DNA of 64,000 bases from NCBI RefSeq assembly GCF_900313025.1, contig NZ_OMPQ01000008.1:227432-291431 (forward strand). Reading direction: 5' to 3'. This DNA is from Pseudophaeobacter sp. EL27. GTDB lineage: Bacteria; Pseudomonadota; Alphaproteobacteria; Rhodobacterales; Rhodobacteraceae. The notes beneath the pieces were generated by a model, which worked only from the letters and a program-made list of their open reading frames with translations, was not told the DNA's origin and did not search any database. Of the stretch, positions 12,414 to 21,740 are shown piece after piece. A program made the translations under genes and the position numbers. Position 1 is the stretch's first letter, and each line of letters opens with the position of its first letter.

Positions 12414-12692
12414 ATGACAGCTCCAGAGACAACATCAGACGAAGCCACCAACGACAGCTACAAGGTCACTGCAGGCGAGCTGCGCCAGTTCGTCGAGCGC
12501 ATTGAGCGGCTGGACCAGGAAAAGGCAGATATCGCGGAGCAGCAGAAAGAGGTTTTCGCCGAGCTCAAAGGCCGCGGGTATGACGTGAAGGTGGTGCGCT
12601 CCATTGTAAGGCTCCGCAAGAGGGACAAAGACGACATCGCTGAAGAAGAGGCGGTGCTGGAGATGTACAAAGAAGCGCTGGGCATGGTGTGA
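12414..12692 (+). CDS. DUF2312 / GapR-family nucleoid protein
   Basis: The 92-residue product matches the DUF2312/GapR family: VTAGELRQFVERIERLDQEK, then the KADIAEQQKEVFAELKGRGYD segment and VVRSIVRLRKRD, i.e. nearly the whole protein. Chromosomal GapR binds AT-rich overtwisted DNA ahead of replication forks in Alphaproteobacteria. A prophage copy next to replication genes may stimulate topoisomerases or mark phage DNA. An AGGATC ribosome site lies about 9 nt upstream. Confidence 0.85.
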   Translation: MTAPETTSDEATNDSYKVTAGELRQFVERIERLDQEKADIAEQQKEVFAELKGRGYDVKVVRSIVRLRKRDKDDIAEEEAVLEMYKEALGMV

Positions 12693-13111
12693 TGACAGAG
12701 CGCCTGACAGCTGAGCAGTACAGGGATGCCCATGCCCCCAGAGGGAAGGGCAAAGAAGATCGTCGCCGTGTGCGTGGCGCTCAGCGCACCACAACCGCTG
12801 ACGGCATCACCCATGACAGCAAGACAGAAGCGGATCGCTGGGAAGAGCTGAAGCTACTCCAGAGGGCAGGAGAGATCTGTGGGCTGCGTCGTCAGGTCGA
12901 TATCGTGCTCCAGGGGCGTGACGGTCCTATCATGACAGACGGGGGAGAGCAGGAGCGTGTTTACCGCGCGGACTTTGTCTACGTCGATAACGCGCTGGGC
13001 ATCACAGTCGTGGAAGACCGCAAGGGGCATGAGACCGATGTGTTCAGGCTCAAGCAGGCAATCCTTGCAGCACAGGGGCAAGAGCTCCTGATTACCAGAG
13101 CAAAGGGGTAG
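12692..13111 (+). CDS. DUF1064-like phage endonuclease (PD-(D/E)XK)
   Basis: The 139-residue product starts at the ATG sharing one base with the preceding stop (TGATG). TADGITHDSKTEADRW matches the conserved N-terminus of DUF1064, and YRADFVYVDNALGITVVEDR followed by KG supplies the D...ExK nuclease core. These proteins are typical of phage replication/recombination modules and are predicted to cleave branched or damaged DNA. Confidence 0.8.
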   Translation: MTERLTAEQYRDAHAPRGKGKEDRRRVRGAQRTTTADGITHDSKTEADRWEELKLLQRAGEICGLRRQVDIVLQGRDGPIMTDGGEQERVYRADFVYVDNALGITVVEDRKGHETDVFRLKQAILAAQGQELLITRAKG

Positions 13112-13116
13112 GGAGC

Positions 13117-13686
13117 ATGGGAAGGCGCTCTAACTTCAAACGCATTGGTAAAGATGCCTATGACACTATCGACCAGCGCGCCTTTCCGCCTCTCCTGCGG
13201 CAGCTGAAGCGTCCTGTGCGGTACTGGGAGCCCTGTGCTGGTGAAGGGCGTCTTGTACGCGCGCTGGGCGCCGAGGGGCATGCCTGTGCCGTGGCTACCG
13301 ACATCAGGCCGCGGGAAGAGGGGATCTATCGTCTGGATGCATTGCAGGCGACTGCTGAGGATGTGGACACCACCGGCGCGGAAATGATCATCACCAACCC
13401 GGTTTGGTCGCGCCCCTTGATGCATGCCATGATCGACCACTTTTCCCGGATCCGGCCAACGTGGCTGCTGTTCGATGCTGCCTGGATGTACACGGTCCAG
13501 GAGAAAGTAGCGCGCAAGCACGGCGTGAAGACCACTCCGGAGCTGCTGAACTACTGCCACAAGATCGTGAGTGTTGGCCGGCTGATCTGGATCCCCGGCA
13601 CCACCATGGCCGGGAAGGATGATGTTTGCTGGTATCTGTTCGATCAGAGCAGACCCAGCGGACCTATCGAGTTTATTGGAAGTTGA
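13117..13686 (+). CDS. Class I SAM-dependent methyltransferase-fold protein (phage)
   Basis: The 189-residue product has motif I WEPCAGEGRLVRALGAEGH, an acidic strand end in VATDIRP, and motif IV IITNPVWSRPL. The sequence NPVW in place of the usual NPPF/NPPY is odd for an N6-adenine methyltransferase and may alter the target or reduce activity. The target domain is very short, so it may depend on a partner. A GGGTAGGGAGC ribosome site precedes the ATG. Confidence 0.7.
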   Translation: MGRRSNFKRIGKDAYDTIDQRAFPPLLRQLKRPVRYWEPCAGEGRLVRALGAEGHACAVATDIRPREEGIYRLDALQATAEDVDTTGAEMIITNPVWSRPLMHAMIDHFSRIRPTWLLFDAAWMYTVQEKVARKHGVKTTPELLNYCHKIVSVGRLIWIPGTTMAGKDDVCWYLFDQSRPSGPIEFIGS

Positions 13687-13694
13687 GGCAAGGC

Positions 13695-14327
13695 ATGAGC
13701 TACAAGATCGGGCAGCAGGTGCGCCCAAACCTTCACCGCAGGCTAACAGGTGATCCTATTCAGACCGCGCTGGGCGAACCTTGCACGCATTGGTACGTGC
13801 TGAAGGTGGCAGCCCTGCAGGAGTTCGTTGTGCAGGAATGGTTGAAAAGTGAGCCGGGTGTACTGGATGCCTGGCTGCCGACTGAGAAGGCGTGGCGCAA
13901 CCAGGCCCAGGGTCGTCGGCGCAGGATCCCTTACAGGAAGAAGATCGCCCCCGGCTATGTCTTTGTCTGTGTAGATCACCAGATCGCATGGGATGTGTTA
14001 CGCCACCAGTCAAACGGTAAGGTGCTTGGTGTCGTTGGGCGCGATGGCAGGCCCATGCCTGTGCCTGAAGACCAAATGCGCGCCATGAAGAGGTTGCCCA
14101 AGACCATCCAGAAGATCTACGCCGAGCAGGAAGCAGCCTCGGCCATCGTGCCTGGTATGAAGGCTCGCATCAAGGATGACAGCGGTGTCATGGCTGGCTG
14201 GGTCGTTGACGTGTCAGAGGTCAACCGCGGCATCGCCAAGGTCTTGGTTCCATTGTTTGGAGGTAGATCTGCCGACTTGGATGCAACGTGCTTGGAAAAG
14301 CACTCCCAGATGGGGAGGGACACATAA
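13695..14327 (+). CDS. NusG-like transcription antitermination protein (phage)
   Basis: The 210-residue product has an NGN-like domain at about residues 30-130 (HWYVLKVAALQEFVVQEWL, then RKKIAPGYVFVCVD) and a C-terminal KOW-like segment (IVPGMKARIKDDSGVMAGWV). GlyTyrValPhe after a basic stretch is typical of NusG/RfaH. A NusG paralogue at the end of the early operon, before the late (HNH-terminase) region, is in the position of lambda Q, so it may let RNA polymerase read into the late genes. An upstream in-frame Met at 13626 lies inside the previous gene and is unlikely. Confidence 0.8.
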   Translation: MSYKIGQQVRPNLHRRLTGDPIQTALGEPCTHWYVLKVAALQEFVVQEWLKSEPGVLDAWLPTEKAWRNQAQGRRRRIPYRKKIAPGYVFVCVDHQIAWDVLRHQSNGKVLGVVGRDGRPMPVPEDQMRAMKRLPKTIQKIYAEQEAASAIVPGMKARIKDDSGVMAGWVVDVSEVNRGIAKVLVPLFGGRSADLDATCLEKHSQMGRDT

Positions 14328-14435: not shown

Positions 14436-15425
14436 CTATCCTACTGTTCTGATTTCGCCTTTGTTGCCAAATTCCTCGAAGCCAGAATCGACCGTCATTT
14501 CTTTGTCGAGTATGTCGTCTAGATAACTTGCGGGAGTTATGATGCCGTAGCCTAGCCCATTTAACTTGTCAGAAGAAGTAGGAGAAATTGCTGTGCTTGC
14601 GACCACTCCCACAACACAACCGTCGCGATTCAATACTGGTGCTCCACTGCTTCCGCCCTTTACGCGAGCATTGACCAGAAAATACTCGGTAGTCTCCTGG
14701 TAGGGAATACCACCACCAACGATCTCTCCGTTCATGACCTTAATCTCAGATCCGATTTCGCCATGCTCAAGCACTGTCAATCGATCAAACCCGGGAACAG
14801 GCGGAAAACCAATACTCAGGATGCTTTCACCCAGAACGTGCGCAGATTTTCGAAATGGTAGAAATGTTGGTGTCGATTCTTCTTCTAGCAAGAAGACCGC
14901 CAGGTCAACGTCAGATGCAACGTGATATGAGAGACTTCGTATTCTACGAGGATTTTCATTTGCACCTAACACCTTAACACTCTGCATATTCTCCACAACA
15001 TGGCGAGCGGTTACAAAGGTATTTGCGTTACCGAGAAAGAACCCCGTACCGATATCATAGTCATTATCGCGGTCTTTAACTATTACTGGGGCAACGGCTC
15101 CGGAGTGCCGCCGAAAAATCTCAATGGGACCACCAACCCGGTTTTCGTAGACACCATATTCGGCTTTGGTTTCCGAAAATTCGCGTCCCAAATATAGTCG
15201 CTCCAGTCCAACTCCTCCCAAATCGACCAAAAGGCCTTGGTGTACGAGTTGGTTAACTACGTGAAAAAGGTAACCAACATCTAAGGTTTCATTCCAACGT
15301 GGGTCTGAGTTCACGAAATCAACTAGTTTCAATGAGGAAGGTTGACCTGTTGCTAACTGACCAGCGGCATGGAAGTGGCGCATTAAAAGTGTGGCAAGGT
15401 TTTGGGGTCGTTCCATTTTTTCCAT
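14436..15425 (-). CDS. Trypsin-like serine protease with N-terminal helical domain
   Basis: The 329-residue product has residues 1-80 as a helical domain of unknown type (LATLLMRHFHAAGQL, then VGYLFHVVNQLVHQGLLV), reminiscent of small adaptor domains. Residues 105-315 are an S1 protease: H142 in FVTARHVV, D174 in SDVDLAVF and S260 in GGSSGAPV, so the triad is complete. There is no signal peptide, so it acts in the cytosol, unlike HtrA. Cytosolic trypsin-like proteases with adaptor domains occur as effectors of bacterial immune systems. It lies 115 bp downstream of the three-gene unit on the same strand and may be part of it. Confidence 0.8.
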   Translation of the reverse strand: MEKMERPQNLATLLMRHFHAAGQLATGQPSSLKLVDFVNSDPRWNETLDVGYLFHVVNQLVHQGLLVDLGGVGLERLYLGREFSETKAEYGVYENRVGGPIEIFRRHSGAVAPVIVKDRDNDYDIGTGFFLGNANTFVTARHVVENMQSVKVLGANENPRRIRSLSYHVASDVDLAVFLLEEESTPTFLPFRKSAHVLGESILSIGFPPVPGFDRLTVLEHGEIGSEIKVMNGEIVGGGIPYQETTEYFLVNARVKGGSSGAPVLNRDGCVVGVVASTAISPTSSDKLNGLGYGIITPASYLDDILDKEMTVDSGFEEFGNKGEIRTVG

Positions 15426-15540: not shown

Positions 15541-16146
15541 TTATTTTAGAGGGTCATGCGTCATTGGCACGATTGTGTGTCGGACATGGTAAGGCAGTCC
15601 AGAGCCCTTGCAGTCGTGTTCGGTGCGGAAAAAGAGATGTGGATTTATCTCATCTTCGACGATGTCAACATATTGATGGTTAGCTTTGATATGATGCATC
15701 CAGTCTGTAAGAACCGCAGCTGAAGGCTTTTGTCCCTCAGTATGATAGATCAGTATTTCAGCGTGATCTCTCTCGGACATCGATCTTCCATAACGCGTAG
15801 AAAGTTGCAAGAATCCAGCATCCGTCCAACTGGCCCCTCGATGAATCTTTGCCTCTGCTACCCAAAGAAAACCAGTTGAGTGGTCTTCAACGGTGAGATC
15901 AACATGACCACCACGTTTAACGTCATGGTTTGCTACAATGCCAAGCGTTGAGAGAATCCCGCATATAATGTTTGTTAATCCATCCTCACCGAGACCCGCG
16001 TAATCTTTTCGTCCATCCACTAAGTGCCGGTATGCACGCTTCAAAAGACTCTCTAGGGCTTGGACACGCTTTTCCGTAGTCGTAGCGAAAAAGTACAAGT
16101 CTGCTTCAGGCAACCTCTCGGCAATGCCAAACTGCTGATTATGCAC
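15541..16146 (-). CDS. PD-(D/E)XK restriction-endonuclease-like protein
   Basis: The 201-residue product has a helical N-terminus, then EDGLTNIICGILSTLGI, GGHVDLTVED (D83) and, 15 residues on, VAEAKIHRG (E98, K100), the layout of a PD-(D/E)XK active site. The C-terminal half has no named domain. It is the third gene of a tight - strand unit (4-bp gaps). A nuclease effector acting on phage DNA is the likeliest role; specificity would come from its partners. Confidence 0.75.
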   Translation of the reverse strand: MHNQQFGIAERLPEADLYFFATTTEKRVQALESLLKRAYRHLVDGRKDYAGLGEDGLTNIICGILSTLGIVANHDVKRGGHVDLTVEDHSTGFLWVAEAKIHRGASWTDAGFLQLSTRYGRSMSERDHAEILIYHTEGQKPSAAVLTDWMHHIKANHQYVDIVEDEINPHLFFRTEHDCKGSGLPYHVRHTIVPMTHDPLK

Positions 16147-16150
16147 GCTA

Positions 16151-16561
16151 TTATTTCCCCTTTGCCCGATCAGATTCGCGAGGCATCCAAAAGAATGGAT
16201 GAACCCACTTCAAAAAATCTGAGTGTTCGGTGCCGAAATCAGGGTGAGCTAGTTTTCCTGTCTCTAAAGCTTCTGCGTAGAGTTCAGCCTCAAGCTCTCG
16301 AATATTTCCATCATCATCGGTCCAGTAGATTCCACGTGACAATGCAGGCTTCGAGAGCTGCGTAAGTACATATAGAGCCGAAAGGACGTGAGTATGCTCG
16401 GTGGTAAGATCCAGGCGGTCAATTACCCTGCGAACAGTAATGAACTGTGCACTATCTTCAGTAAGTTTTTCAAGCCATTCCACAACTTTGAACGCCATTG
16501 CACGAACATCGTCGTCCAGTGGCGTTGCAGTCAACTCTTCTCGTATGTGGTCAAGCTCCAT
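16151..16561 (-). CDS. Unrecognised middle gene of the three-gene nuclease unit
   Basis: The 136-residue product has a predicted helical N-terminal two-thirds (VRAMAFKVVEWLEKL, then ITVRRVIDRLDLTTEHTHVL) that could be a winged-helix, followed by SRGIYWTDDDGNIRELE and an aromatic C-terminus (FLKWVHPFFWMP). No family is recognised. It sits 4 bp from both neighbours, strongly implying co-translation and a shared complex. Confidence 0.6.
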   Translation of the reverse strand: MELDHIREELTATPLDDDVRAMAFKVVEWLEKLTEDSAQFITVRRVIDRLDLTTEHTHVLSALYVLTQLSKPALSRGIYWTDDDGNIRELEAELYAEALETGKLAHPDFGTEHSDFLKWVHPFFWMPRESDRAKGK

Positions 16562-16565
16562 TATA

Positions 16566-17714
16566 TCACTCTACCACAGCAACCTCGTTAAGGCTCGCGT
16601 GTTCTGCTAGTACTTCAACCAGACTTTCGAAATCAACGCTTGTAAGGCAGCCCTCAAGCATTGCCGCGTTAACTTCCGGGTTCCCGCCTGCCCCGTTTCC
16701 GGACGGACCGCTTCCACGCAATGATAAGCTGATAGGATAAGACTTCCTCTCAGACAACCTTGCTTGCCATTCTACGCAGATGTGAAAAACGGAAATATCT
16801 TCATCAACCCCGACTTTCCCTGCTAGGTGGTAGGCTTGAGTTCTGCTGTCACCCTCTTCTTTCCTTAACATGCGTTCATTGTGAAGGCCATTTGTGGAAG
16901 TCGAGAATGATATTTCAGTTGCTCGTCCGACCTTAATATCAGAGTACAGTGAGGTGATCGCTGGGAAAAGATCGTGTGGGGGCTCAAATTTCACCTCAAG
17001 CAATTCAGCACAGAAGCGTCGCAACAATGAGTGTATTGTGAATGCATTTCTGGTTCCTGCTCCCAATGTGCAGTCTAGTCTAAACTCAATAAAGTCGCGC
17101 TCGTGAGGTACCCACATCACGTGGAAAAGAGGCACTGGTTGGAGTTTCACACCTACCAATTCATCATACTTCGTAAGAAATTTCGGTGCATGGGCGAACT
17201 CACTTCTTTCGACCGCCTCACGCGTTTTCTGAACCACAACTTGCGATAAAACGAGCCCAACACCATCGGGGGTCACTTCTACAGAGACTGGCGTTAGTTT
17301 TCCGCTGGCCTTTGCTAAGTTTTCCTCATCCAGAGGCAAGGGGTACGCAGATCTCTCATCTGTCTCTTCAAGTGTCAGCCCGAGAAGCTTGCTTTGCACG
17401 GCCTTACGCATAGACGGCTGCATAGGGTGCAACTTAACGTGTTTATCAGAATACAATGTGTGCTGGATCAGTAAGTCGATCAAGCGCCCATGTAAATTTT
17501 CATCTTCCGAAGATTCATACTTGGTTCTTGAAGCTTGCCAGCCATTGCCCGGCAACATGCCCGCCATCCACATTAGCCGCCTCCCTGTGGTGTAAGACAT
17601 GCGGCGTTCCATACGCGAAATAACGTCAGATATCATAGATAAAATTCCAAAGTACAGAAAGTAAGGTCTCTGCGGAGATCCAAGAAGGCGAATCCCTTCA
17701 AGATGAAGTGTCAT
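16566..17714 (-). CDS. Unrecognised first gene of the three-gene nuclease unit
   Basis: The 382-residue product is not recognised. The first 60 residues are hydrophobic-rich but polar enough for a soluble fold. SSEDENLHGRLIDLLIQHTL and a middle region rich in beta strands (VSVEVTPDGVGLVLSQVVVQ) follow, then a C-terminal segment with Gly/Ser linker (SLRGSGPSGNGAGGNPEVN) and an acidic helix. No ATPase, nuclease or helicase motif is visible, so it may be the sensor or structural part. Codon use is AT-richer than the phage genes on either side, a sign of separate acquisition. Confidence 0.6.
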   Translation of the reverse strand: MTLHLEGIRLLGSPQRPYFLYFGILSMISDVISRMERRMSYTTGRRLMWMAGMLPGNGWQASRTKYESSEDENLHGRLIDLLIQHTLYSDKHVKLHPMQPSMRKAVQSKLLGLTLEETDERSAYPLPLDEENLAKASGKLTPVSVEVTPDGVGLVLSQVVVQKTREAVERSEFAHAPKFLTKYDELVGVKLQPVPLFHVMWVPHERDFIEFRLDCTLGAGTRNAFTIHSLLRRFCAELLEVKFEPPHDLFPAITSLYSDIKVGRATEISFSTSTNGLHNERMLRKEEGDSRTQAYHLAGKVGVDEDISVFHICVEWQARLSERKSYPISLSLRGSGPSGNGAGGNPEVNAAMLEGCLTSVDFESLVEVLAEHASLNEVAVVE

Positions 17715-18054: not shown

Positions 18055-18408
18055 ATGGCCTCAGTCCACGAAACCACAGAGTGGCGCAAGCTACGCCCGG
18101 TAATCCTGCAGCGTGACTTATGGACCTGCCAGATGTGCGGCGCCTTGCTGCGCTCTGGGCGGCGTCACAAGGCGGCTGCAGTGATCGACCACAAGAGGCC
18201 ATACGACCTGCGTCCGGATCTGGCCTATGATCCAGCGAACCTATGGGCGCTGTGCCGTGACTGCCATGACCGAGAATGCCGACGCATTGAGGATAAGGCG
18301 CGCGGCATGCGCCAATGGACCTTCCGTGGTGCTGACTGGATTGCCTCGGAGAAGGCCAAGTGCCGCTTTGTCGGGCTGGATGGCGCAACCGTCATTCCAA
18401 CCGCCTAG
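18055..18408 (+). CDS. HNH endonuclease (phage packaging-associated)
   Basis: The 117-residue product has zinc knuckles CQMC (25-28) and CRDCH (67-71), the catalytic DH pair at 45-46 (AAVIDHKRPYD) and N62 (PANLW), giving a complete HNH site. Its position just before the terminase genes is typical of HK97-like cos phages, where HNH proteins assist terminase in cutting cos. The G-rich gap 18409-18550 could hold the cos site. Confidence 0.85.
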   Translation: MASVHETTEWRKLRPVILQRDLWTCQMCGALLRSGRRHKAAAVIDHKRPYDLRPDLAYDPANLWALCRDCHDRECRRIEDKARGMRQWTFRGADWIASEKAKCRFVGLDGATVIPTA

Positions 18409-18550: not shown

Positions 18551-18949
18551 ATGAAGAAACCCGTCTACAAGAATATTTACAGTGACTTAGAGGATGGTGG
18601 TGAGCGCGCAAAGGTCGCAGAAAGGGAGTGGAAAGCGCTCTGTTTGGACCTGGAAACGCGTGATTTGATGACAGATCAGCGCAAACGGATCGTGGATCGT
18701 CTGGTACGTGAGCGGGTTGAATACGAGTTTCTGTTCCCCATCGCCATCAAGGCAGGACATGTGAACAAAGGCCCGAAGGGTGGGGAATTCGTCAATTTGC
18801 ACTGGTCTGCCCTACAGAGAACCAAGGACCAGATTTTGAAGTTGGAAGAGGCCCTGAGATTGACCGTTGATCGGGTGGCCGCTCCAACTGGAAAGACTGA
18901 GAAGAAAACAAAAGCGAGCAAGTATCTTGGCAGGCTTGGACCCAACTAG
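18551..18949 (+). CDS. Terminase small subunit (P27-like)
   Basis: The 132-residue product is helical and charged, with a region resembling the P27 family (LVRERVEYEFLFPIAIKAGH, then NLHWSALQRTKDQILKLEEA). It is followed, out of frame and overlapping, by the large subunit. It would recognise phage DNA at cos and stimulate the large subunit. Assignment rests on order and general similarity. Confidence 0.7.
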   Translation: MKKPVYKNIYSDLEDGGERAKVAEREWKALCLDLETRDLMTDQRKRIVDRLVRERVEYEFLFPIAIKAGHVNKGPKGGEFVNLHWSALQRTKDQILKLEEALRLTVDRVAAPTGKTEKKTKASKYLGRLGPN

Positions 18950-20573
18950 CGAGTATGCGCGCCGGGTTCTGGATGGGGAGATCATTGCGGGCAAGTACGT
19001 GCGCCTGGCATGTGGACGCCACTTCGCTGATCTGGAAGCCGGCGCAGCGCGCGGTATCTATTTCGATGCGGAGGCAGCCCAGGAGGCGATAGAGTTTTTC
19101 CCGGCGATGTTCACCATCACGGATGGGCCGAAGGCTGGTGAGCCCTTTGATTTGTTGGATTGGCATACCTTCGTGGTTGGGTCGCTGTTTGGCTGGCACA
19201 AGGCTGGGCGCCTTCGGTTCCGCAATCTCTGGCTGGAGACAGGCAAGGGACAGGCTAAATCTCCGCTGATGGGCGGCATTTCCATCTATGTTTGTGGATT
19301 TCTGGGGATCCAGCGGGCGCAGTGTTATGCCATTGCCTCGAAGTTGGACCAGGCAAAGATCCCGTTCAAAGATGGAGCGGCACTCTGCAGGGCAGACATT
19401 CCCGATCTGGGCGAAAGCCTGGAAGAGCGGGGCGACGTTTTCATTTCCGGCAAAGGCGAGAATGCATGGCGGATTGAGTTCACGGAAAGCTCTTCGTTCT
19501 TTGAGGCAAAGGCCACCACGGACAGCCTGTCGGGGCCGAGGCCGGACTGTGTGATTGCCGATGAGGTTCACGAGTTCACAACGGACAAGCCGATTGAGCT
19601 CTGGGCAGCTGGGGTCGCCAAGAAATCCGGATCTGCCTTTATGATCCTGGGCACCAATACCCCGGCGATTGACCAGATCGTCGGCACCGAGCAATCAGAA
19701 TACTACCAGCGCCTGCTGGAGGGCATCTTTGAAGATGACGAGGCCTTTGCCTATATCGCGAGGGTGGATGATGACGACGACCCATTTGCAGATGAAAGCT
19801 GCTGGATCAAAGCGATGCCTGCTCTGGGCGTCACTTTCGACTATGAAAACGTGCGCGGCGTCGTCAATCGCGGCAAGAACGATGAGGGGAAACGGCTCAC
19901 AGTCTCGCGCCTGTACTTTGGCATTCCGGTTGGCTCAAGTGGGTTCTGGGTTGATGAGGCCGCCTGGCGCGACTGTATCAAGGATATCGAAGAGGAAGCC
20001 CTTGAGGGCAAGAAGTGCTTCCTGTCCCTTGATCTGTCGGAGAAAAACGACCTCACGGCCCTGGGCGCGGTCTGGAAAGGGCAGGATGATCAGTTGCTGG
20101 CCAGGGTCGACTATTGGACCACACCGGCCGGGCTGGAGCGCCGGTCTGCTTTGGATCGCATTCCTTACAAGGTCTATGTTGCAAAGCAGGAATTGAAGGT
20201 CACCCTGTCTGCGGTGGTGGACTATGAATTTGTTGCGCTGCGCATTGCTGAGATGGTTGCGCAATATGACGTGGACAGCCTGACAATTGACCCCTCATTC
20301 TGGGAGAAGTTCCGGGACGCCTGCGAAAAGGTGGGCTTGGCAGTATGGGTCTATGAGGGGCCGGAAGAGCCAGAGGGCGATGGGCTGAAGGTTGTCAGGC
20401 ATTCGCAGGGCACCAAGGTAGCATTTGGGGAGCGCAATCTCTGCATGCCGCACTCAATCACCCGGCTCACCGATAAGGTTTTGACCAAGGAAATCGTCAT
20501 CCAGACCAACCGGCTGACGCAATACTGCGCGGCCAATACGGTTATCAAGACGGACGTGAGCCTCCCCCAATGA
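18867..20573 (+). pseudogene. Terminase large subunit, truncated by IS insertion
   Basis: The frame holds Walker A (ETGKGQAKSPL, residues about 123-133), Walker B (DCVIADEVHEF, about 227-237) and the first part of the nuclease domain (CFLSLDLSEKNDLTAL, about 386). It stops within the left IS end: the last native residues are about NTVIKTD and the final four come from the IS. The closing nuclease segment is missing. The true start may be an alternative codon near 18927, because the ATG at 18867 overlaps the small subunit by 83 bp. The protein probably cannot package DNA. Confidence 0.85.
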
Positions 20574-20613
20574 AGTGGTCCGCCCCTATGTTTAGAAAAG
20601 CGGAGGACCATAG

Positions 20614-20892
20614 ATGGCTATTAAGAGACCGAAGCCCGAAGAGATTGTCGTGAAGTTACGGCAGGTTGAAGTGTTGATGGGGCAAGGGATGCCCCGGATT
20701 GATGCAATCCGTCAGATCGGCGTGACGGAGCAAACCTATTACCGCTGGAAGAAGAAGTACAGCGGAATGGGCACAGAGCAGCTTAAGGAACTGAAGCGGC
20801 TCCAGAAGGAAAACGAGCGCCTGCGCAGGGCGGTAACGGACCTGACGCTGGACAAATTGATCCTGTCCGAGGCCGCAAAGGGAAACTTCTGA
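20614..20892 (+). CDS. IS3-family transposase OrfA
   Basis: The 92-residue product has an N-terminal helix-turn-helix ([20 protein letters not shown], then [12 protein letters not shown]) and a leucine-zipper-like helix ([20 protein letters not shown]). It binds the IS ends. A -1 frameshift near GCAAAGGGAAACTTC (20875-20889) would fuse it to OrfB. Confidence 0.9.
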
Positions 20893-20936
20893 GCCCCTCG
20901 CGCCGCCGTGCCTGCATCGACCTCATTCGCAGCAAG

Positions 20937-21740
20937 ATGAAGGTTTCCGAGCGTCGCGTTTGCCGTGTCCTGGGCCAACACCGGTCCACACAACGGCGAT
21001 TGCCACAGGGGCGTGCCGACGAGGAACACCTGGTAGCTGATATGATCGAGCTGACGCGTCAGTACGGGCGATATGGCTATCGCCGGATTGCTGCCTTACT
21101 GCGAGACGCTGGCTGGCAGGTGAATGACAAACGTGTCGAACGTTTGTGGAAACGCGAGGGGCTCAAAGTGCCTGTGAAACAGCAAAAGAAAGGACGGCTC
21201 TGGCTCAACGACGGTTCGTGTGTCCGGCTTCGTCCCGAATATCGTAATCACGTCTGGTCGTACGATTTCGTGCATCACCGAACAGATGATGGCAGGGCTT
21301 TCAGGACATTGAACATTCTGGACGAACACAGCCGGGAATGTCTTGCGATCCGGGTGAAGCGGAAGCTGAACGCGAACGAAGTCATTGATGCTCTGACGGA
21401 TCTGTTCATTCTGCGAGGCGTGCCCTCTTACATCCGATCAGATAATGGCCCTGAGTTCATTGCTGAGGCCGTCAGAGGCTGGATCAAGGCTGTCGGGGCC
21501 AAGGCCGCATACATCGAGCCTGGATCGCCATGGGAGAACGGATACTGCGAAAGCTTCAATGGGCGAATGAGGGATGAATTGCTGAACGGTGAAATCTTCT
21601 ATTCGTTACGAGAGGCCCAGATCATTATCGAAAGCTGGAGAAAACACTACAACACCAAACGACCCCACAGTGCTCTGGGCTACCGCCCACCTGCGCCAGA
21701 GACCATCGTCCCGATGGACCAAAGGCCAACCATGCACTAA
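20937..21740 (+). CDS. IS3-family transposase OrfB (DDE integrase domain)
   Basis: The 267-residue product has an HTH_21 segment ([19 protein letters not shown]) and an rve domain with the DDE residues in [22 protein letters not shown] and [15 protein letters not shown]. It ends in the usual [14 protein letters not shown]. The frame opens upstream near 20880 without a good start, as expected for expression through the OrfAB frameshift. It looks intact. Confidence 0.9.

Follow-up and report, generated by a model that had tools for sequence, protein, structure and literature searches.

The locus and its prophage setting

Three genes on the - strand, here called A, B and C, lie at 15541-17714 of the window, which is the whole 64,000-nt stretch of DNA analysed. 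A sequence-only reading of the same DNA had described these open reading frames correctly, with gaps of 4 bp both between A and B and between B and C. Its treatment of them as a three-gene unit is borne out by the recurrence of the three families together, but it passed over a fourth - strand gene, at 14436..15425. The features of the locus are as follows.

17714..16566, - strand: gene A, open reading frame of 382 aa with ATG start; exchangeable partner and proposed sensor
16561..16151, - strand: gene B, open reading frame of 136 aa with ATG start; proposed coupling domain
16146..15541, - strand: gene C, open reading frame of 201 aa with GTG start; PD-(D/E)XK nuclease and proposed effector
15847..15900, - strand: active-site stretch of C, with the codons of D83 at 15900-15898, E98 at 15855-15853 and K100 at 15849-15847
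14436..15425, - strand: trypsin-like serine peptidase (Trypsin_2, E 3e-20; PHROG 18002), 115 bp downstream of C

The unit is opposite in direction to the prophage genes, as had been claimed, and runs of + strand genes are found on both sides of it. One flank holds resolvase-like, methyltransferase and antiterminator genes (12689-14327), and the other an HNH endonuclease at 18055 and the large terminase at 18867. The further claim that the unit is richer in AT than its surroundings stands with a reservation, given that its GC content is 47.7%, as compared to 55.2% for the window, but 7% of windows of the unit's length, taken at steps of 100 along the 64,000 nt, are equally low. The AT-richness counts as modest evidence. 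In a whole-genome search, C was absent from two genomes of the genus to which the window belongs, which suggests that A-B-C arrived recently. Elsewhere in the prophage, the terminase reading frame (18867-21740 region, + strand) ends just ahead of a two-ORF transposase pair (20614-20892 and 20937-21740), which may have inserted into the terminase.

The trypsin-like gene raises the prospect of a four-gene nuclease-protease system. The protease is on the same strand as C, 115 bp downstream, and has a similar GC content, and defence by nuclease-protease pairs is known; in the available portion of their description these resemble the window unit as a portable effector common to unrelated immune systems, with a protease nearby (PMC12799240). 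Such a system is scarcely credible here. Among 147 loci, RdgC loci included, the protease was matched in the window's own copies; the other match was a single weak one (E <0.01) on the opposite strand, at the locus L147. The published pairs, as far as that portion of the source describes them, combine a nuclease of the metallo-beta-lactamase fold with a protease fused to a defence enzyme, whereas the window has a PD-(D/E)XK protein and a free, non-conserved protease (PMC12799240). The peptidase was dropped as a fourth component because it neighbours A-B-C in the window's own copies only, and it is possibly a separate cargo gene at the same site. By eye, its first 100 residues look winged-helix-like.

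Database searches and linkage of the three families

None of the three proteins has a match in Pfam, PADLOC (2023 version) or NCBIfam up to E 1, and the earlier statement that no named system can be assigned is upheld. The word "unrecognised" is right with respect to named families, but it overlooks three PHROG families of unknown function, 12777 for A (E 7e-34), 11490 for B (E 1e-7) and 9664 for C. Searches of PDB sequences with profiles of A, B and C gave chance-level matches only, those of B to haemagglutinin spanning 37 positions, and nothing beyond stray Pfam matches came from 36 sequences each of A and B. A literature search of partial coverage, with few subscription papers and no bioRxiv preprints, found the module described in none of the titles and abstracts listed, nor, under the same coverage, any paper that combines RdgC with anti-phage, nuclease and defense system, or RdgC-like with defense. 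PADLOC dates from 2023 and the papers searched are an incomplete set, so a recent description of the module may exist elsewhere.

Relatives were gathered from phages, plasmids, bacterial genomes (18 loci), viral contigs (18 loci) and whole-genome searches. Among 50,697 phage records and 72,556 plasmid records, tblastn matched C in 5 and 13, respectively, and the phage records gave nothing for either the window A or the trypsin-like peptidase. No relative was found in a scan of genome contigs with the window C alone, the PHROG model of C had the window as its sole match among 289 genomes of the class, and two scans of viral sequences with other subsets of C found nothing. A scan with A rows recovered five loci, all on contigs already in the set. 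With Rhodobacterales C rows ten loci were found, nine of them on contigs already in the set; the tenth, L147, has the arrangement A-B-C and was left out of the count that follows.

The 94 C-bearing loci, with RdgC and E. coli loci excluded, were clustered at 95% to give 60 distinct C genes. Their arrangements are A-B-C (46), a B fusion followed by C (9), B-C (3) and C without detectable B (2). The spacing is tight in the A-B-C loci, from -49 to +47 between A and B in 44 of the 46 and from -56 to +8 between B and C in all 46. That the same three families stand in the same order in 46 of 60 loci argues that the arrangement is more than chance. Co-occurrence across 57 genomes agrees with this linkage, as 10 of the 16 C-positive genomes carry A and 14 carry B, and neither is present in any of the 41 C-negative genomes. 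The six C-positive genomes without A carry the EF-Tu and S3 fusions described below, a Type ISP enzyme, B-C alone and, in two genomes, C behind a Res-like gene. One genome, G360, has an additional 44-residue fragment of A. The three proteins matched no known non-defence operon. The interpretation as a conserved, unnamed nuclease unit carried as cargo thus holds, but the sequence-only reading missed that A is only one of the partners of B-C.

C is infrequent, being found in 9 of 390 genomes sampled from the order, 7 of 394 from the family, 1 of 385 from the class and 7 of 398 from the phylum, in samples that overlap. In a Klebsiella phage record, whose gene order we take to be P2-like, A-B-C stands alone between the replication gene and the packaging genes. 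It adjoins the integrase in a Vibrio phage (Vinavirales), lies close to a recombinase on a Pantoea plasmid, and occurs on a 6-kb Klebsiella plasmid and in cyanobacteria. When the neighbourhoods were inspected, without statistical scoring, no named defence gene was noticed as a constant neighbour of A-B-C. The record of Moraxella phage Mcat13 (L004:3317-5444) contains a full A-B-C that is unannotated. The three B-C loci that lack A (L072, L073 and L074) are all in genome G745, where two copies of C are intact and one is a fragment, and each B copy has an N-terminal extension of repeated wording.

Gene C encodes a PD-(D/E)XK nuclease

The PD-(D/E)XK residues proposed earlier, D83, E98 and K100, are numbered correctly and are invariant in all 44 aligned C sequences, the window's included. 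The full set of invariant positions is E54, G80, D83, W95, E98, K100, Q114, Y119 and P199, each of them unchanged in 44 of 44 rows, or in 43 of 43 without the window. Window copies and near-copies, ten loci in all (L001, L002, L012, L016, L018, L040, L042, L045, L049 and L050), were left out before the 43-row alignment was made. The AlphaFold2 model of C has a pLDDT of 92.3, and the Foldseek list against the PDB is headed by AF1548, NucS and HindIII, followed by EndoMS, DdmD, EcoRV and Can2. None of these matches is strong, the best having an E of 0.0099 and none lying below 0.001, and unrelated proteins such as gephyrin and PTP1B are interspersed in the list. AF1548 presumably has the PD-(D/E)XK fold. 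By its conserved active-site residues and its predicted fold, gene C is a member of the PD-(D/E)XK superfamily.

Comparison of the 44 C sequences with Pfam one by one gave stray matches, such as Mrr_cat (1 of 44), PDDEXK_9 (1 of 44) and HamA (2 of 44). The PADLOC candidate family PDC-S54, to which the library assigns no function, is matched weakly by 11 of 44 C relatives (best E 4.7e-6), but not by the window C.

Gene A and its possibly RdgC-like fold

The AlphaFold2 model of A (pLDDT 86.2, pTM 0.85) was compared with known and predicted structures by Foldseek. In the PDB, the sole matches below E 0.001 are to RdgC (2owl, 3.9e-5; 2owy, 3.0e-4), with TM scores of 0.35-0.44. Four matches in BFVD are below 0.001, of which the best is a phage RdgC (E 2.3e-6) and the second a putative TATA-binding-like viral protein (E 2.6e-4). 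The profiles show no likeness, as hhalign of the A profile against 16 RdgC sequences gave a probability of 0.1 and no similarity. The candidacy of A as a true RdgC homologue was reduced on this account to a resemblance of fold. A is likely, if unproven, to have an RdgC-like and putatively DNA-binding fold according to its model. RdgC itself is not known to be paired with B or C, and Pfam detects no ATPase-like domain in A. L051 was omitted from the alignments of A, since on that viral contig (L051:5389-6455) the gene is broken into two reading frames.

The fold of A invites comparison to phage recombination functions. A unit in which an RdgC-like DNA-binding protein and a nuclease serve the phage's own DNA metabolism would be in keeping with the frequency of RdgC in phages (385 of 50,697 records). 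We regard such a unit as very unlikely, given that plasmids and bacterial contigs, alongside phages, make up most of the sources, that the unit is oriented opposite to the phage genes, and that A is replaced by restriction enzymes in relatives.

Fusion of B to other proteins

In 9 of the 60 loci, A is missing and the B domain is found at the C-terminus of a much larger protein with C directly behind it. The partners of B are listed by locus.

L022, L024: Type ISP enzyme, by Pfam domains
L028, L031: Type ISP enzyme, by 72% identity to L022/L024
L007: MmeI-type enzyme, by MmeI domains
L032: HsdR-like protein, with HSDR_N and SWI2/SNF2
L027: helicase-like protein, with Pfam ResIII just below the cut-off and PADLOC type IIG at E 3.5e-30
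L063 (genome G344): EF-Tu, domains 1-3, in a fusion of 572 aa
L065 (genome G302): ribosomal protein S3, by S3 domains, in a fusion of 353 aa

A rebuilt model of the stand-alone B, searched against 2774 reading frames, matched the fusions at E 1e-15 to 1e-21 and the S3 fusion at 1e-5; against reversed sequences it gave no match up to E 1. The S3-B protein is the weakest of the fusions, with a B match of E 1e-5 (6e-5 in the genome search) on a contig of 3.3 kb. The start of C lies 4 bases inside the stop of the fusion in 6 of the 9 loci. Upstream of the L032 and L027 fusions, reading frames resemble, by eye, modification and specificity subunits. Two further loci have C behind a ResIII-domain protein in which no B was detected, L064 (by Pfam) and L075 (92% identical to L064). 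A tblastn search of plasmids with C from L063 and L022 matched three new records, two from Proteus and one from Acinetobacter, and among the records inspected no B fusion was found outside Rhizobium. For B itself, in which the sequence-only reading had suggested a possible winged helix, a Pfam scan of 36 rows gave three helix-turn-helix-type matches, each in 1 of 36 and weak (E 0.012-0.022); L047 was omitted from the B alignment. B is proposed to be a small domain that would couple C to a partner.

The EF-Tu and S3 fusions, found in one genome each, are additional to ordinary copies, as G344 retains two tuf genes and G302 one rpsC. The EF-Tu part is full length, aligns collinearly with the EF-Tu of G344 itself over 391 residues and shares 88% identity with it. 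The S3 part is 61% identical to the native S3 of G302, and its KH loop reads LGEGG rather than the native IGKKG, such that, in this one sequence, the basic residues are lost.

A tree of C was built from 59 of the 60 sequences, with the C fragment of L074 omitted. Several deeper forks are without resolution, and the well-supported branches require at least six changes between A-B-C and other arrangements. The EF-Tu, S3 and window units fall in one supported group of 12 (99/95), the rest of which are A-B-C or B-C. This grouping indicates that A is one of several interchangeable partners.

Partner exchange bears on two other accounts of the unit. In the first, the unit would be a toxin-antitoxin or plasmid addiction system, in which A and B restrain a toxin C and so stabilise the element. 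The unit is small, compact and mobile, and is carried by plasmids down to 6 kb, but swapping A for restriction enzymes, EF-Tu and S3 makes no clear sense in an addiction system, which would also have to accommodate three genes rather than two and the many copies that are chromosomal or in prophages. We consider it improbable.

In the second, the partner would serve for targeting rather than sensing, by bringing C to its substrate with B as a docking piece only. All recognised partners bind nucleic acid or work beside it, and EF-Tu in the fusion is still complete and 88% identical to the native protein, which favours delivery. An ungated nuclease held permanently on EF-Tu or S3 would, however, damage the cell, and the LGEGG loop of the S3 fusion, without the basic residues of IGKKG, speaks against delivery to RNA, albeit in one sequence. 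We judge targeting to be rather unlikely. The destinations that it would entail are DNA for the restriction enzymes, tRNA for EF-Tu, the mRNA channel for S3 and a DNA structure for A.

Comparison with known defence systems

Type ISP, MmeI-type and Type I restriction enzymes are related to the unit in that some of them bear the same B domain with a gene of the C family behind. The window unit differs from these enzymes in that neither a methyltransferase nor a helicase or specificity domain is present in it. Its three proteins match no family in Pfam or PADLOC, and by this measure it is not a restriction-modification system. The three-component ABC-3C systems have an ABC ATPase in the operon, and no ATPase domain was found by Pfam in A, B or C. 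As to Hachiman (HamA-HamB), no window protein matches HamA in Pfam or PADLOC, and A-B-C has no helicase; HamA models each match at most 2 of 44 C relatives, with a best E of 0.0017.

PrrC, PARIS and Ronin are nucleases that answer the inhibition of restriction or anti-restriction proteins, according to the accessible portions of two accounts (PMC12409349, PMC12707154). PrrC/EcoprrI is similar to the fusion loci in that a nuclease gene is linked to a restriction system and answers the inhibition of that system (PMC12409349, PMC12707154). PrrC, as these portions present it, is an anticodon nuclease inside a restriction-modification locus, whereas here a PD-(D/E)XK protein follows the B domain of unrelated partners, and the PADLOC models of PrrC do not match the window A, B or C. 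PARIS and Ronin sense anti-restriction proteins, and in PARIS the protein AriA restrains the nuclease AriB until Ocr binds, in the same portions of the texts (PMC12409349, PMC12707154). The window unit differs from PARIS (AriA-AriB) and Ronin in that A, B and C have no PADLOC match to them and no ATPase-like domain was found in A.

A proposed defence module with an exchangeable sensor

Three gene families, their linkage, a nuclease active site, the swapping of partners and the extra status of the EF-Tu and S3 copies are observed directly. From these we lean, by a little, towards A-B-C as a mobile module for defence, whose sensor can be exchanged and whose nuclease effector is C. The best pointer to a defence role, and an indirect one, comes from relatives that carry B at the end of a restriction enzyme, immediately followed by C. 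Why a nuclease should be tied to a spare EF-Tu or S3 is hard to explain unless the spare protein is bait or a delivery vehicle, and the altered KH loop of S3 is slightly in favour of bait. The unit travels on prophages, phages and small plasmids, in keeping with competition among mobile elements. Against the module reading, the Type ISP and HsdR proteins own nuclease domains, which makes an additional C unnecessary for restriction, and two C loci are without detectable B.

Physical coupling, gating, the trigger, the substrate and defence itself are steps that we infer for this module. C would be kept inactive in the healthy cell, and B would tie it to a partner protein that determines what is sensed. 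Restriction enzymes detect phage DNA and are themselves attacked by anti-restriction proteins; with such an enzyme as partner, C might fire on foreign DNA or when the enzyme is blocked by an anti-restriction protein. In the simplest reading, a spare EF-Tu or S3 would serve as bait, attracting a phage factor that acts on the genuine protein by binding or altering it. In the window, the signal sensed by A may be a DNA intermediate, or else a recombination or replication protein of a phage, given that the modelled fold of A is like that of the DNA-binding ring protein RdgC. Once triggered, C would cut nucleic acid and halt the infection, probably at a cost to the cell, and a prophage-borne unit would thereby shield its lysogen from rival phages.

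A broader version, to which we give slightly less than even credence, is that B-C is a general guard module plugged onto proteins that phages attack or must pass. The candidate baits so far would comprise restriction enzymes, extra copies of EF-Tu and S3, and the RdgC-like A of the window's prophage. Such a module would be a bacterial counterpart of the plant immune receptors with integrated decoys, with translation proteins used as bait. A nuclease and a putative coupling domain that are shared by, and move among, partners as different as restriction enzymes, EF-Tu, S3 and the RdgC-like A form a combination matched by no tested system. The guard logic, by analogy, is not new and has precedents in PrrC, PARIS and Ronin.

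If this is true, the partner attached to B reveals a component of the cell that phages target, and a survey of partners across genomes could lead to what viruses target and to the effectors that they use for it. The reading would also explain why PD-(D/E)XK genes occur behind restriction enzymes, extend known bacterial immunity by a module that swaps its sensor and offer a testable decoy immunity based on EF-Tu or a ribosomal protein.

Genes beside the partner-exchanged loci

Several neighbours of these loci were recorded in passing. At L064:2845-7010 and L075:5506-12628, a divergent C (E ~1e-26) follows the ResIII-domain protein and a second large conserved reading frame. Behind the helicase-B protein and C of L027 (8153-14630) are a reading frame of 1817 aa and one that is DUF262-like by eye, suggesting that the region is a defence island. 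Upstream of EF-Tu-B at L063:1937-6465, an HD-domain protein (833 aa) and a GHKL-ATPase protein (651 aa) are found, a pair that is perhaps a second defence unit.
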